Origin: an uncultured Bacilli bacterium
Lineage (GTDB): Bacteria; Bacillota_I; Bacilli_A; RF39; UBA660
Reading direction: 5' to 3'
NCBI GenBank assembly: GCA_944350345.1
Contig: CALVOP010000009.1
Span: 1 to 34,110, forward strand
DNA: 34,110 nt
Part shown: in pieces, positions 10,613-30,443 of the stretch
How positions within the stretch are numbered: position 1 is the stretch's first letter
Layout: every line of letters starts with the position of its first letter
Made by a program: the position numbers and the translations under genes
Notes under the pieces: generated by a model
What the model was told of the DNA's origin: nothing
Database searches by the model: none
The model's input: only the letters and a program-made list of their open reading frames with translations

Positions 10613-10960
10613 TTAATGCTTTGGTTTGAAAAAAATAGTTACTAGAAAAGAGATTATAATTGTAGTTGTTAAAATTGCTGAAGAAGAAAGTAACCCGTTT
10701 AATAACCCTATTAATCCAGTTTGCTTAAAACCATTATATGCTCCTTGAAATACTACATGTCCAAAATTCATTATAGGCATTGATGCTCCTCCACCAGCCC
10801 ATTTTATAAATATATCATATAACCCAAGCGCAGATAAAATAACACCGCTTATAACTAAAATGGTGTTTAAATCTCCTGGAGTCATTTTCGTGTTTTCTAA
10901 TATTATTTGTCCAATTGCGCAAACAAAACCGCAAAATATAAATGCATGTAAATAAATCAC
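10613..10960 (-). CDS. spoVAE: Stage V sporulation protein AE
   Basis: 115 residues, hydrophobic, with about four membrane segments. The segment TKMTPGDLNTILVISGVILS and the following GGGASMPIMNFGH are typical of SpoVAE (SpoVAEb). It is part of the inner-membrane channel through which dipicolinic acid enters the forespore and leaves at germination. The start is GTG at 10960; its G is also the last base of the spoVAD stop TAG, and GAGGTGAT lies just upstream. Last gene of the operon; no clear hairpin terminator follows. Confidence 0.9.
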   Translation of the reverse strand: MIYLHAFIFCGFVCAIGQIILENTKMTPGDLNTILVISGVILSALGLYDIFIKWAGGGASMPIMNFGHVVFQGAYNGFKQTGLIGLLNGLLSSSAILTTTIIISFLVTIFFKPKH

Positions 10961-11934
10961 TATATCACCTCTAAACTTATAGCATGAGATATTGATGGAA
11001 CGGATAGTTTTAAGTTTGAACTCAACGCGGAATGTAATGATCCTGTTCCTACAATTAATATTTTTCTGTATTTTATTTTGCTTATCTTATTAAACAATAT
11101 AAGTGGTAAACATATGGGTCCACTTCCTCCAGATATTTTTTTATTACTCTGTGCATTAAATAGTAAAACTCCGCTATCATTAATATTTTTAACTATTAAA
11201 TTATACTTCCTTTTTAAATATTCTTCTACAATAAGGGTTCCGCATTTTCCTATATCTCCAGTAAGTATTAAATCATAGTAATCTGGTTTTCTTCCAGTTG
11301 ACTTTAAATGTTCATATATGGTTTCTGCTGCGCTTGGGGCCATACAGGCTCCCATGTTATTTGGATCATCATAATTTATGTCAATAACTTTTCCTATTGT
11401 TGCGCTTTCTATTTTTATGTTTCCACTTGTAGTGATATATGTACTTACACTACCTGTTGCTGTAAATGTATTTACTTTTTTTCTTATAGCTCCGTACTCA
11501 ATTGGAAACCTAAATTGTTTTTCACTAACTAAATTATGTGAACTTGTTGTGACGATTGCATTTTTTACTAGTCCGTTTTCTATAAAACTTGCTCCTATTA
11601 TTAATCCTTCGGCAAATGTTGCACATGCACTGTATATTCCTAAGTGTGAAATATTAAATTCTTTTGCACCAAAGTTAGTTGATAATATTTGATTTTGTAA
11701 GTCACCACCAATTAATAAATCAATATCATTTTCATGTTTTTTTATTTTATTTAGTAAACCTTTTATGCTTTCTTTTTGATAGCTTATTTCACCTAGTTCA
11801 ACTGTTTTCTCATTATTATAATAATCGTTTAAGTTTTTATCAACTTTGTTTTCTATTACTGGACTATGTTCGTTTCGACCAAGTAATGTGTAATTATTGT
11901 TTATAAAAACGTTATGAAATTTTATTGTCTTCAT
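10960..11934 (-). CDS. spoVAD: Stage V sporulation protein AD
   Basis: 324 residues, thiolase-like fold. SpoVAD is the soluble SpoVA subunit that binds dipicolinic acid at the spore inner membrane. Motifs seen include LLIGGDLQNQI, HLGIYSACATFAEGL (Cys in the thiolase-like position), NNMGACMAPSAAETI and LILTGDIGKCG. The ATG at 11934 is chosen over the one at 11943 because it forms an ATGA overlap with the spoVAC stop and has AAAAGG nine bases upstream; the earlier ATG directly abuts that site. Confidence 0.93.
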   Translation of the reverse strand: MKTIKFHNVFINNNYTLLGRNEHSPVIENKVDKNLNDYYNNEKTVELGEISYQKESIKGLLNKIKKHENDIDLLIGGDLQNQILSTNFGAKEFNISHLGIYSACATFAEGLIIGASFIENGLVKNAIVTTSSHNLVSEKQFRFPIEYGAIRKKVNTFTATGSVSTYITTSGNIKIESATIGKVIDINYDDPNNMGACMAPSAAETIYEHLKSTGRKPDYYDLILTGDIGKCGTLIVEEYLKRKYNLIVKNINDSGVLLFNAQSNKKISGGSGPICLPLILFNKISKIKYRKILIVGTGSLHSALSSNLKLSVPSISHAISLEVI

Positions 11935-12365
11935 GATAAGCATCCTTTTATTAAAGCCATAAAGAAAGCTACAACTATCGTATATAAAATTATACTTCCC
12001 GTTAATTTAAAAATATTTCCACCTATTCCTTTAGTTAATCCTTCTTTTTTATAATCTAATGCCGAGCAAGTCATGGAATGGGCAAAGCCTGTGGTTGGTA
12101 CTATTAATCCTGCTTTTGCAAAACTGACAATTTTGTCAAAAAAACCTAAGCCAGTACAGATTGAAGCTATGCACACAATGATGATTGAAGTATAGAGATA
12201 TCCTTCATCTAAAGGAAGTTGGTAAGTATTACTGATAAAATTTGCTAGTGCTTCAGCTAATACACCTATACCCCCACCAAATATAAATGCAATTAGTATG
12301 TTAACAAACTTGTTTTCTTTAACTGATAAACGTTGTACTAGGCTTTTGTACTCTTTTTCTTTCAT
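11931..12365 (-). CDS. spoVAC: Stage V sporulation protein AC
   Basis: 144 residues, about four membrane spans, with GFAHSMTCSALDYKKEGL conserved in SpoVAC. In Bacillus this subunit is a mechanosensitive pore for dipicolinic acid release. It begins the spoVAC-D-E set. spoVAA, AB, AEa and AF of Bacillus are absent here, as in many reduced spore formers. AGGTGA precedes the ATG. A SigG-type promoter lies just upstream at the end of sigF, so it can be transcribed both from the sigF promoter and late in the forespore. Confidence 0.93.
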   Translation of the reverse strand: MKEKEYKSLVQRLSVKENKFVNILIAFIFGGGIGVLAEALANFISNTYQLPLDEGYLYTSIIIVCIASICTGLGFFDKIVSFAKAGLIVPTTGFAHSMTCSALDYKKEGLTKGIGGNIFKLTGSIILYTIVVAFFMALIKGCLS

Positions 12366-12380
12366 AATTTCACCTATTTT

Positions 12381-12409
12381 TATTATGAAAGTTTTTTACT
12401 TTAACATAC
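12381..12409 (-). promoter_or_regulatory. SigG-type promoter before spoVAC
   Basis: Minus strand: GTATG (12405-12409), a 17-base spacer, CATAATA (12381-12387). This fits the forespore SigG pattern (G-n-A-T-R at -35, CATnnTA at -10), and the Bacillus spoVA operon is SigG-dependent. The leader would be only about ten bases, starting at the AGGTGA ribosome site. The -35 lies in the last codons of sigF. Confidence 0.6.
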
Positions 12410-13063
12410 TATATTTTTTTTGATTTTGGCTAATATATGTTTTTCATTTCTTGATACTTGTACTTGACTAATTCCCAAAATCGTCGCAGTTTCTGATTGT
12501 GTACAATCTTTAAAATATCTTAAGTCAACTAGTTTTCTTTCAAATTCTGGTAAATTCATTAATTCCATTTTCAAGTCTAAAAGTGAGTCTATTGTTTCTC
12601 TTCTATCTTCCCCACAGGTTTCGATAAATGTTGTATTTTCATCCTCACGTAAAGAAGAGTCAGTACTTAAAACATATTCACTCATTTTTATTGCATCATA
12701 TACAGTTTCTTCATCTAATTCTAAAAATTCACAAATTTCTGAAAAAGTTGGAATTTGTTTTTTTCTTTGCGCAAGCATTTCTTTTGCTTGTTCATACAAT
12801 TTATATATTTTTAATGAATCTTTGCTAACTTTTATAGTTCTATCTTTTTTGATAAAATCTAGCATTTCACCTAATACATATTGGTAAGCATATGTAGTAA
12901 ATTTTGTTCCTTGATTTGACTTGTAATTTTTTTTAGCATTTATAAGACCTATTACTCCAACTTGAAATAAATCTTCTATAGGATATTTTGGGCTAAATTT
13001 ACTAGCTATTTTGTAAATTAGTCTTTCATATTGTTTGACTAAAGTAGTCATTTCTTCTGTCAT
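12401..13063 (-). CDS. sigF: Sporulation sigma factor, SigF/SigG type
   Basis: 220 residues. Region 2 is at about 25-80 (IEDLFQVGVIGLINAKKNY, KFTTYAYQYVLGEM), region 3 near 105-135, and region 4 at the end with RYFKDCTQSETATILGISQVQVS, very close to the SigF/SigG signature. It follows spoIIAA by a four-base ATGA overlap and precedes spoVAC, the Bacillus spoIIA-spoVA order, which favours SigF over SigG. The N-terminal segment before region 2 is shorter than in Bacillus SigF. Its normal inhibitor SpoIIAB should be encoded just before it but is not present. Confidence 0.85.
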   Translation of the reverse strand: MTEEMTTLVKQYERLIYKIASKFSPKYPIEDLFQVGVIGLINAKKNYKSNQGTKFTTYAYQYVLGEMLDFIKKDRTIKVSKDSLKIYKLYEQAKEMLAQRKKQIPTFSEICEFLELDEETVYDAIKMSEYVLSTDSSLREDENTTFIETCGEDRRETIDSLLDLKMELMNLPEFERKLVDLRYFKDCTQSETATILGISQVQVSRNEKHILAKIKKNIVC

Positions 13064-13404
13064 ATCTTAAACACCTCAATCGCAGTGAGTTCATCACTTG
13101 TTTCAAAATATTTACTTTTTAAATCTGTATTACTAATATTTTCCTTCATGTATTTATTTAAACTACACATTGTTGTTTTTCCATTCCATCTACTAACTAG
13201 TTCATTTAATTTAATAAGTGTTTGTATGCCATAAGAATCAATTGATTGTAATTTATCTAAGTTTACTACTATAAATTTTAGACCATGTTTTAAAATAACT
13301 GGGATTACATTATCTTCAATCTCATGTATCGTATATTTATTTAATTTTCCCTGTAATCTTATAAATAATATTCCTTTTCTAAATTCCATATCAATCTTAA
13401 GCAC
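13060..13404 (-). CDS. spoIIAA: STAS-domain anti-anti-sigma factor, SpoIIAA-like
   Basis: 114 residues, a single STAS domain. The phosphorylation site is conserved as SIDSYGIQTLI (D56-S57), equal to the Asp-Ser of SpoIIAA, where SpoIIAB phosphorylates the serine and SpoIIE removes the phosphate. The start is GTG at 13404 with AGGTGAT seven bases before it. A Spo0A box lies about 52 bases upstream. Directly after it, with a four-base overlap, comes sigF; the expected spoIIAB is missing. Confidence 0.85.
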   Translation of the reverse strand: MLKIDMEFRKGILFIRLQGKLNKYTIHEIEDNVIPVILKHGLKFIVVNLDKLQSIDSYGIQTLIKLNELVSRWNGKTTMCSLNKYMKENISNTDLKSKYFETSDELTAIEVFKI

Positions 13405-13454
13405 ATTATCACCTGCCTAATTAATATAGATTATTTTTTTTAATATTTATACAC

Positions 13455-13464
13455 TTTCGACAAA
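13455..13464 (-). promoter_or_regulatory. Spo0A box before spoIIAA
   Basis: On the minus strand the site reads TTTGTCGAAA with the core TGTCGAA, the consensus binding site of phosphorylated Spo0A. It lies about 52 bases before the spoIIAA start, as expected for activation of the spoIIA operon. No confident SigH or SigA core promoter was identified between box and gene. Confidence 0.7.
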
Positions 13465-13473
13465 TCTAGAAAA

Positions 13474-14610
13474 TTATTTTGCTCGATTTTTATTTACAAT
13501 TTTTTTAATAATTATGTAAACTGTAATAGTTACTACCAGTAAAATAATGATATAAAATGCTAAATTAATATTTGCATTTTGATCTTTTTTTTCGTTTTTG
13601 ATTATATTTTCAGTTAATTTACTAGCTACTTCAAAAATATCTTTTTTCTCAATATTTTGCACGTTTAATAGTTTTTCGTTTTTATTATATACTAATTCAT
13701 TTGCATTATTTAGTGTTGTTGAATAATTAATTTTATACCTATAATATGTTTTTTTAGTATTTTCATCCTTTGTGTAATTTTCAATATTTGCATAGTAACC
13801 ATTTAAATATTCTTTACTTTTATTTGTACACTTGAATAATTTGTCTTGGTATTGATAAACTATTATAGGAAGTTCAAAAAGAGTTTCGTAGTCTAATTCT
13901 TCTAAATTAATAGTTAGTTCACAAATTTTTTCATCACAATTAATTGTAAATTTATCGCTATATATATTTTGAAATGTTAAATAGTTATAATTATCATGAC
14001 TTGTGGCAAATCCAATTTTTTCTATATTGTTGTTTTCATTTATATATGAGATTTTAATAAACATGTTTTGGTTTAATGTTAAATTATTTAGTGTCAAAGA
14101 TATTTTATCGTGATTTTCAAAATCTATTGCAATTTCTTCAACGTCATTGTCATTTAATTTATCAAATTCTTTTACGTTAAAATCCGTTTTATCTGTCAAT
14201 ATATATGGAATGTTTTCTAAATTTTGTGTTATGGTTACTTCTGTAATGTTAATGATTTTGTCGCTGTTTATATCAAAAATGTGCATGGTACCTATTAAGT
14301 TTGGATTCTTTACTTGGTCAATTTCTAAAGTTTTTATTGTTCTGTATTCTTTATATTCTGGAGTGCTGTATGAAATTATCCAATCACTTAATATAAAATC
14401 ATTCTTATCAAAATATTCACAATTGGGTTCATTTTCTAAATTTGTGTATTCGCTTTCTTCGATTATTTTATACCACTTGTATCTTTCCTCTTCTTCAATT
14501 ACCAAATTTTCTCCAAGTGGCTTTTCATCTTGCCATTCGCTCCATGTTTCCTTAGCATATAAATTTGTAAAAGGAACTATTAGTAAAAATAAAATATATA
14601 ATTTTTTCAT
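13474..14610 (-). CDS. Secreted, C-terminally anchored surface protein of unknown function
   Basis: 378 residues. A signal peptide (1-19, ending LYA) leads to an external region that opens with TWSEWQDEKP and YKWYK, a short aromatic module also known from other Bacillota surface proteins. The middle is Asn/Glu-rich and probably beta-structured with about five cysteines. A membrane span at about 350-370 and a basic tail anchor it. GGAGG lies just before the ATG. It lies 70 bases upstream of spoIIAA on the same strand with no hairpin between them, so read-through into the sporulation operon is possible. Function unknown. Confidence 0.7.
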   Translation of the reverse strand: MKKLYILFLLIVPFTNLYAKETWSEWQDEKPLGENLVIEEEERYKWYKIIEESEYTNLENEPNCEYFDKNDFILSDWIISYSTPEYKEYRTIKTLEIDQVKNPNLIGTMHIFDINSDKIINITEVTITQNLENIPYILTDKTDFNVKEFDKLNDNDVEEIAIDFENHDKISLTLNNLTLNQNMFIKISYINENNNIEKIGFATSHDNYNYLTFQNIYSDKFTINCDEKICELTINLEELDYETLFELPIIVYQYQDKLFKCTNKSKEYLNGYYANIENYTKDENTKKTYYRYKINYSTTLNNANELVYNKNEKLLNVQNIEKKDIFEVASKLTENIIKNEKKDQNANINLAFYIIILLVVTITVYIIIKKIVNKNRAK

Positions 14611-15841: not shown

Positions 15842-16569
<728 letters not shown>

Positions 16570-16672: not shown

Positions 16673-17833
16673 ATGAAAAAAATAATTATTACTATTTTTG
16701 TACTTTTAATTATAATTAAATGTGACTATGTAAGTGCAGAAATAAATTTAGACTTAAAATCTAAAAGCGCTATTATGATAGAAGAATCTAGCAAAAAAAT
16801 ATTATTTGAAAAAGATGCTCATGAAAAAATGGCACCTGCTTCAATGACAAAAATAATGACACTTTTGCTCGTTGCAGAAGCCATCAGCGATAATAGAATA
16901 TCTTTAGATCAAGAAGTCACTGCTAGTGAATACGCGGTATCAATGGGTGGTAGTCAAGTTTATTTAGAGGCTAATTCTAAATATAAAATTAGTGAATTAA
17001 TTAAGGCCGTGGGAATTGGTAGTGCAAATGATGCTTCTGTTGTTTTAGCCGAAGTTGTAGGTGGGACTGTAGAAAACTTTGTTGCAATGATGAATAATAA
17101 GGCAAAAGAACTTGGTTTAACAGATACTAATTTTAAAAACCCTCATGGTTTAGATGAGGCAAATCATTATTCAACTGCTTACGATATGGCAATGATTGCG
17201 AGTGAATTAGTAAAATACGATTTTATACTTGATGTTACTAGTACTTATGAAGATCACTTTACTCATCCTAATGGCAATAGTATTTGGCTTGTAAATACAA
17301 ACTCATTAATTAGATTTTATGATGGCGTTGATGGTTTAAAAACTGGTTTTACTACTGAAGCTGGTTATTGCTTAACAGCAACTAAAAAAGTTGATGATAT
17401 GAGAATTTTAACTGTAACTATGAATGCTGAAACTAAAGATGATCGTAATTCTGATACGATTAAATTAATGGAAAGCGCATTTAGTATGTATAATGTTAAA
17501 AAAGTAATTGATAAAAATAATTCTTTAGGTAAAACGTTTGTAAATAAAAGTACGCAAAAATATGTTAATTATTATTTGGAAGATGACGCAAAATTATTAT
17601 TAACAAAAGACACTCGTGATATTAAATATGATTATAAAATAAATGTTGATAATCTTACAGCACCTTTAAAAGCAGGAGATGTTGTTGGTAAATTAAAATT
17701 AACTTATGATAATGAATCTGTAGAATATAATATTATAATAAACGAAGATGTTAAAAAAGCTAATTATTTTGAAACTTTATATTCATATTTCAAAGATATA
17801 ATAAGTGGAAATATTAATTTAATAAAAAACTAA
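16673..17833 (+). CDS. dacF: D-alanyl-D-alanine carboxypeptidase, DacF/PBP5 type
   Basis: 386 residues, peptidase family S11. It removes the terminal D-Ala from peptidoglycan stem peptides outside the membrane. A signal peptide covers about 1-22. The catalytic motifs are SMTK (S57, K60), SAN (117-119) and KTG (223-225). A PBP5-type C-terminal domain follows, and the last 24 residues (YFETLYSYFKDIISG) form the amphipathic membrane anchor. AGGTGATG precedes the ATG. In Bacillus dacF sits directly before spoIIAA and is forespore-specific; here a homologue lies 3 kb away on the other strand. The dacF name is by family and location, and a vegetative DacA role is possible. Confidence 0.88.
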   Translation: MKKIIITIFVLLIIIKCDYVSAEINLDLKSKSAIMIEESSKKILFEKDAHEKMAPASMTKIMTLLLVAEAISDNRISLDQEVTASEYAVSMGGSQVYLEANSKYKISELIKAVGIGSANDASVVLAEVVGGTVENFVAMMNNKAKELGLTDTNFKNPHGLDEANHYSTAYDMAMIASELVKYDFILDVTSTYEDHFTHPNGNSIWLVNTNSLIRFYDGVDGLKTGFTTEAGYCLTATKKVDDMRILTVTMNAETKDDRNSDTIKLMESAFSMYNVKKVIDKNNSLGKTFVNKSTQKYVNYYLEDDAKLLLTKDTRDIKYDYKINVDNLTAPLKAGDVVGKLKLTYDNESVEYNIIINEDVKKANYFETLYSYFKDIISGNINLIKN

Positions 17834-30086: not shown

Positions 30087-30109
30087 TAAAAAAAGGCTTA
30101 AAAGCCTTT
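30087..30109 (-). terminator. Terminator of the CotD-like gene
   Basis: AAAGGCTT/AAGCCTTT with a 2-base centre followed by TTTTTTT on the minus strand. It overlaps the stop codon. Confidence 0.75.
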
Positions 30110-30443
30110 AAAAGTTGCCACAACATCCTTCATTTACGTTGCATATTTCATTTTCTTCGCAACAAGTATAACAAGGACTATAAGTATGTCTATAAATATG
30201 ATGATTAATTATTCTTGTATTTATAGGACATACATGTGGTACTTCATGTATTATTTGTCTATGAATTTGTCTTTCTTGCGGACATTCATAAATTGGTGGA
30301 CACATTACGCCAGGAATTGATTCTGAAGAACAAGCAGATGATGAATACATGTCTGTGCTAGTCACATTTTTATATTCTGTTTTTGTTTCTTTCTCTTTTT
30401 CTACTTCGTATCCACTATACATACCATAATTTGAATTAAACAC
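30108..30443 (-). CDS. cotD: Spore coat protein, CotD-like
   Basis: 111 residues, rich in Cys (ten), His and Tyr. The core IYECPQERQIHRQIIHEVP and CPINTRIINHHIYRHTY matches CotD-type inner coat proteins of Bacillus and clostridia. The C-terminal CYTCCEENEICNVNEGCCG could form disulfide cross-links in the coat. The start is GTG with AAAGGAGTGAG six bases upstream. A consensus SigK promoter lies directly upstream, which independently supports a late mother-cell role. Confidence 0.85.
   Translation of the reverse strand: MFNSNYGMYSGYEVEKEKETKTEYKNVTSTDMYSSSACSSESIPGVMCPPIYECPQERQIHRQIIHEVPHVCPINTRIINHHIYRHTYSPCYTCCEENEICNVNEGCCGNF

Follow-up and report, generated by a model that had tools for sequence, protein, structure and literature searches.

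A spoIIA operon without the anti-sigma kinase gene and with an altered STAS protein in a bacterial order, probably RF39

On balance, the 34,110-nucleotide stretch of DNA analysed here (the window) probably carries a derived form of the spoIIA operon, with a dismantled SpoIIAB/SpoIIE switch and with a Spo0A-commanded sigma-F that is accompanied by a phosphorylation-independent STAS partner. SpoIIAB is missing throughout the sampled order, which is probably RF39 of the GTDB taxonomy, a group of small-genome gut bacteria. This assignment is based on the small genomes, on a member belonging to Candidatus Coprosoma (L127), a group placed in RF39, and on consistency with Field et al. 2024.

The operon lies on the minus strand. 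The Spo0A box TTGTCGAA (13456–13463), which begins 59 nt ahead of the STAS start codon, is followed by the spoIIAA-derived STAS gene (13060–13404; 114 aa, GTG start, STAS domain PF01740 with 56 bits), sigF, encoding RNA polymerase sporulation sigma factor F (12401–13063; 220 aa, with a short N-terminus), spoVAC (11931–12365; TIGR02838 with 126 bits, PF03862), spoVAD (10960–11943; TIGR02845 with 298 bits, PF07451), and spoVAE of the spoVAEB type (10613–10960; TIGR02839 with 107 bits, PF03862). The gene order proposed in the initial annotation, from the Spo0A box through spoIIAA and sigF to spoVAC, spoVAD and spoVAE, was confirmed by the open reading frames and the box, and the spoIIA–spoVA synteny expected of sigma factor F is present at this locus. 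The four-base overlap between spoIIAA and sigF noted at the same time was also found: the sequence ATGA at 13060–13063 of the minus strand contains both the STAS stop and the sigF start, leaving no room for a kinase gene between them, and probably couples the translation of the two genes. An assembly gap was rejected as the cause of the missing spoIIAB, since the genes overlap inside the contig and this arrangement was seen in more than 150 loci.

The upstream neighbour of the operon (13474–14610, minus strand) encodes a predicted secreted protein with a C-terminal membrane anchor, assigned to no Pfam or NCBIfam family; it is fast-evolving, and its signal and anchor were judged by eye. Relatives of this protein are encoded upstream of STAS–sigF or of a lone sigF in 27 loci, some of them with long coiled coils (715 aa in L091). 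A gene for a DacF-type D-Ala-D-Ala carboxypeptidase is located at 16673–17833 on the plus strand (PF00768, 259 bits). A dacF-type gene adjoins spoIIAA in two relatives that have SpoIIAB (L001 and L002), and its counterpart near the window operon is a relic of ancestral dacF–spoIIA synteny. The window also encodes, on the minus strand, a collagen-like protein with Gly-X-Thr repeats (15856–16566), possibly a spore surface filament protein comparable to BclA-type proteins, and a small protein rich in Cys and His (30108–30443) with a weak match, below the cut-off, to the spore coat protein CotD.

A search with the SpoIIAB profile (TIGR01925, E 1e-15), which recovered the B. subtilis positive control, found SpoIIAB in none of 288 genomes of the order. 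In the window's genome, the only HATPase matches in the profile search were a 411-aa and a 621-aa protein, both as large as sensor kinases. When 97 genomes of the order were searched for the HATPase_c_2 domain (PF13581), the frames among the matches listed were all at least 259 aa long and mostly of sensor-kinase size. The genomes of the order are mostly metagenome assemblies. That of the window is 90% complete, so the order-wide absence of SpoIIAB is the stronger evidence. The SpoIIE domain was detected in none of 25 genomes (the window's genome and its 24 nearest relatives); across the order, 6 of 276 genomes had SpoIIE-domain matches, three of which were strong. These three are PP2C phosphatase genes in unrelated loci with non-sporulation surroundings (L205, L206, and L208); RsbW-like ATPase domains are found with two of them, and a STAS gene adjoins one. 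In one genome (G256), an RsbW-like ATPase that stands alone is encoded next to a PP2C phosphatase, at a locus unrelated to the spoIIA operon. Neither the partner kinase of SpoIIAA, missing from all 288 genomes, nor the SpoIIE-type PP2C phosphatase of the SpoIIAB/SpoIIE switch was found in the window's genome when it was searched for both, as the initial annotation had proposed. The alternative considered there, that a normally functioning SpoIIAB is encoded elsewhere, found no match in that genome or in any of the 288, and comparison across relatives indicated that SpoIIAB is missing order-wide rather than in a single genome.

The window sigma factor scored 164 bits with the SigB/F/G model TIGR02980 and 152 bits with the SigF model TIGR02885 (short of its NCBIfam cut-off, 321), compared with 103–115 bits for the SigG models and 101 bits for SigB, and its best PDB match was chain C of 1L0O, the sigma-F of the SpoIIAB:sigma-F crystal. 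A weak structure model of SigF (pTM 0.36), built from 23 sequences, was left out of the evidence. By sequence, the window sigma factor is SigF rather than SigG or SigB. The possibility that the window gene is really sigG, with a complete spoIIA operon at another site, was rejected, since the SigF model outscores the SigG models and sigG was found as a separate gene in the same genome. Spo0A, SpoIIR, and SpoIIGA were found there alongside SigG, and a further match, at C21, fits a sigma factor of the SigE/SigK type in size and pattern.

The STAS gene was found in 212 of 276 genomes, representing 83 of the 102 genera of the order. At 120 further STAS loci fetched across the order, sigF lies directly downstream in every case, with a spacing of −32 to +88 bp, and SpoIIAB is present at none of them; spoVA genes follow the pair in many loci. 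A gene resembling, by eye, S-adenosylmethionine synthetase lies between STAS and sigF in one genome (G006, L091:4822–5988), the one clear break of this linkage. A perfect Spo0A box occurs 56–86 nt before the STAS start in 105 of the 120 further loci, whereas the reverse strand has it in 2 of the 120, and in a first set of loci the box was found in 42 of 55, versus 0.9 expected from shuffles; such frequencies are not due to chance.

The STAS protein itself has changed. The window protein reached only 38 bits with the SpoIIAA equivalog model TIGR02886, for which the cut-off is 114.75. Its best PDB sequence matches are SpoIIAA, and its AlphaFold2 model (pLDDT 94.2) has as its best fold match chain B of 1THN, the SpoIIAA of the SpoIIAB:SpoIIAA complex (TM 0.93), which points to a STAS fold and SpoIIAA ancestry. 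The phosphorylatable serine highlighted in the initial annotation (D56-S57) is indeed retained in the window and in its genus, but it is unlikely to signal a phospho-switch, since Ser57 is a minority state in the order: residue 57 is Ser in 37 of 37 proteins with SpoIIAB in the operon, while among 168 kinase-less STAS proteins it is Glu in 51, Asn in 22, Ile in 16, and Ser in only 14 (6.7% weighted), so that the phosphorylatable Ser of the D-S loop is missing in more than 90% (weighted) of the order. F54, D56, S57, G59, and G61 never vary in the 37 SpoIIAB-bearing operons. Most other SpoIIAA-invariant residues are gone, from the window protein as well; those lost in the order include E20, D22, H23, H24, F54, S58, G61, G65, R66, Y67, and G94; G19, D56, G59, G75, and E105 are mainly still kept, and conservation is raised in the kinase-less STAS proteins at L2, E7, G11, F14, N48, and C80. 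Each of the five genomes of the genus listed has two STAS-profile matches. One such protein, of 78 aa and STAS-like, has no serine and its own upstream Spo0A box TTGTCGAA (L202:1495–1731, matched at G000:C2:16167–16361 in the window's genome); this paralogue is a possible second partner in the system.

Phylogenetic analysis of 105 SigF proteins placed those from kinase-less loci in one clade (support 100/99, recovered in all bootstraps), and spoIIAB was thus, most simply, lost once, in one ancestor of the order. The STAS gene was lost, with sigF retained, about 8 times independently, at least five of these losses being forced by well-supported branches of the SigF tree; STAS is therefore dispensable in some lineages. 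Where it persists, it is under purifying selection comparable to that on sigF: within the genus, dN/dS is 0.02–0.20 for STAS and 0.09–0.22 for sigF, and the gene is therefore not decaying. A relative without spore sigma factors (G010) also lacks STAS, SpoIIR, and SpoIIGA, which ties STAS to sporulation.

A direct contact between STAS and sigma-F is conceivable, and we advance it as a tentative proposal; that unphosphorylated STAS binds sigma-F as a direct regulator, an anti-anti-sigma factor turned sigma-binding after loss of the anti-sigma kinase, is rather doubtful. The linkage and frequent overlap of the two genes suggest contact, while the repeated loss of STAS, together with the finding that no sigma-F position is conserved with STAS but lost where STAS is lost, suggests the opposite; about 8 independent losses also argue against an indispensable role of STAS. 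Mean-field covariation over 168 pairs (effective number 137) gave inter-protein scores exceeding those of randomly re-paired proteins, but the high scores were spread widely across the two proteins, and in these 168 pairs the couplings are inseparable from shared ancestry. E149 of sigma-F, which we take to be a contact with SpoIIAB, is 92% conserved where SpoIIAB is present and 31% conserved in STAS–sigF loci, as would be expected if the SpoIIAB contact is gone; the window sigma factor keeps the Glu.

It could be argued that sigma-F is under no post-translational control at all, its timing being determined by Spo0A-dependent transcription only, its compartment being set downstream, and STAS being an accessory. 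The conservation of the Spo0A box in most loci agrees with this, as do its occurrence in 7 of 16 loci scored as STAS-less (the 16 include the boxless L103 and L104, in which STAS is actually present), the retention of sigF through about 8 STAS losses, and the absence of sigma-F residues that change with the loss of STAS. However, free sigma-F prior to septation is harmful in B. subtilis, and the spread of STAS over 83 of 102 genera, next to sigF in all 120 fetched loci and under purifying selection, fits an accessory poorly, so that we regard this explanation as rather unlikely. It is unlikely that STAS targets another partner, be it a sensor kinase through its ATPase domain, the membrane protein encoded upstream, or a short STAS paralogue. 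Sensor-kinase HATPase domains, which share the SpoIIAB fold, are the sole SpoIIAB relatives in most genomes searched, the anchored-protein family is found upstream in 27 loci, and the 78-aa STAS-like protein of the window's genome has its own Spo0A box; nevertheless, the residues conserved alongside a SpoIIAB partner are mostly gone, and neither the membrane protein nor the short paralogue occurs at every locus.

The persistence of Ser57 in the genus, a genome that is 90% complete, and the lone RsbW-like ATPase of G256, with its neighbouring PP2C phosphatase, would agree with a diverged SpoIIAB working normally elsewhere. Against this, no SpoIIAB was detected in 288 genomes, no stand-alone small ATPase occurs among the HATPase_c_2 matches listed for 97 genomes, Ser57 and other SpoIIAA-specific residues are gone in most of the order, SpoIIE is missing too, and the G256-type module occupies an unrelated locus; a hidden SpoIIAB is thus extremely unlikely. 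STAS as a decaying remnant of the former switch, in a lineage on its way to giving up sporulation, would account for the repeated STAS losses, the small genomes, and the absence of spore sigma factors from G010, but it is very unlikely: the low dN/dS values refute it, and the retention of STAS in 212 of 276 genomes, the newly conserved residues, and the well-formed STAS fold also speak against it.

The preferred reading is that of a dismantled switch with a phosphorylation-independent STAS partner. The sequences show that spoIIAB was lost, most simply in one ancestor of the order, and that spoIIE is gone from nearly all members. Spo0A~P would switch on the STAS–sigF pair at the conserved box, which presumably binds it, and sigma-F would turn on SpoIIR, leading SpoIIGA to fire and produce sigma-E; the genes are present, and the relay is modelled on B. 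subtilis. With kinase and phosphatase gone, STAS has lost its phosphorylation and kinase-binding residues, while selection keeps it linked to sigF, most likely as a small phosphorylation-independent partner that tunes its operon mate. Since sigma-F and STAS are kept while the kinase has been lost order-wide and the phosphatase from nearly all members, the first spore-fate step must be controlled in another way. The suggestion in the initial annotation of another route for the first forespore sigma factor agrees with the order-wide loss of SpoIIAB, the near-complete loss of SpoIIE, and the separate sigG.

The order shares with the B. subtilis spoIIA operon the arrangement of STAS, sigF, and spoVA under Spo0A, a nearby dacF-type gene, and a homologous sigma-F and STAS (SpoIIAA being the best fold match), but it differs in the lack of SpoIIAB and SpoIIE and in having Ser57 only in some lineages. 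All spore-forming bacilli and clostridia studied by Galperin 2012 (PMC3533761) have spoIIAA, spoIIAB, sigF, and spoIIE. Segmented filamentous bacteria (Candidatus Arthromitus), which like the RF39 order are strongly reduced host-associated spore-formers, keep SpoIIAA, SpoIIAB, and SpoIIE (Galperin 2012, PMC3533761) and thus, in contrast to that order, the whole switch. A STAS-only regulator with a target other than a classical anti-sigma kinase is known in SypA (reviewed in PMC8256260), but SypA is phosphorylated by the dedicated kinase/phosphatase SypE, whereas the STAS protein of the order has no kinase and mostly no serine. In their KEGG-based lists, Field et al. 2024 (PMC10868615) already include the absence of spoIIAB and spoIIE from RF39; these passages make no mention of the STAS–sigF operon, the Spo0A box, the phosphoserine loss, or a mechanism. 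Our literature search found no description of a kinase-less spoIIA operon or an altered STAS; the bare absence of the two genes is therefore already reported, and what appears to be new is the kinase-less STAS–sigF operon with its altered STAS protein.

The SpoIIAB/SpoIIE switch is the textbook mechanism of the first cell-fate decision of sporulation. A whole order that keeps Spo0A, sigma-F, SpoIIR, SpoIIGA, and SigG while lacking the switch shows that the latter is removable, and the natural series formed by the full switch, STAS–sigF, and sigF alone raises the question of how forespore identity is set in its absence.
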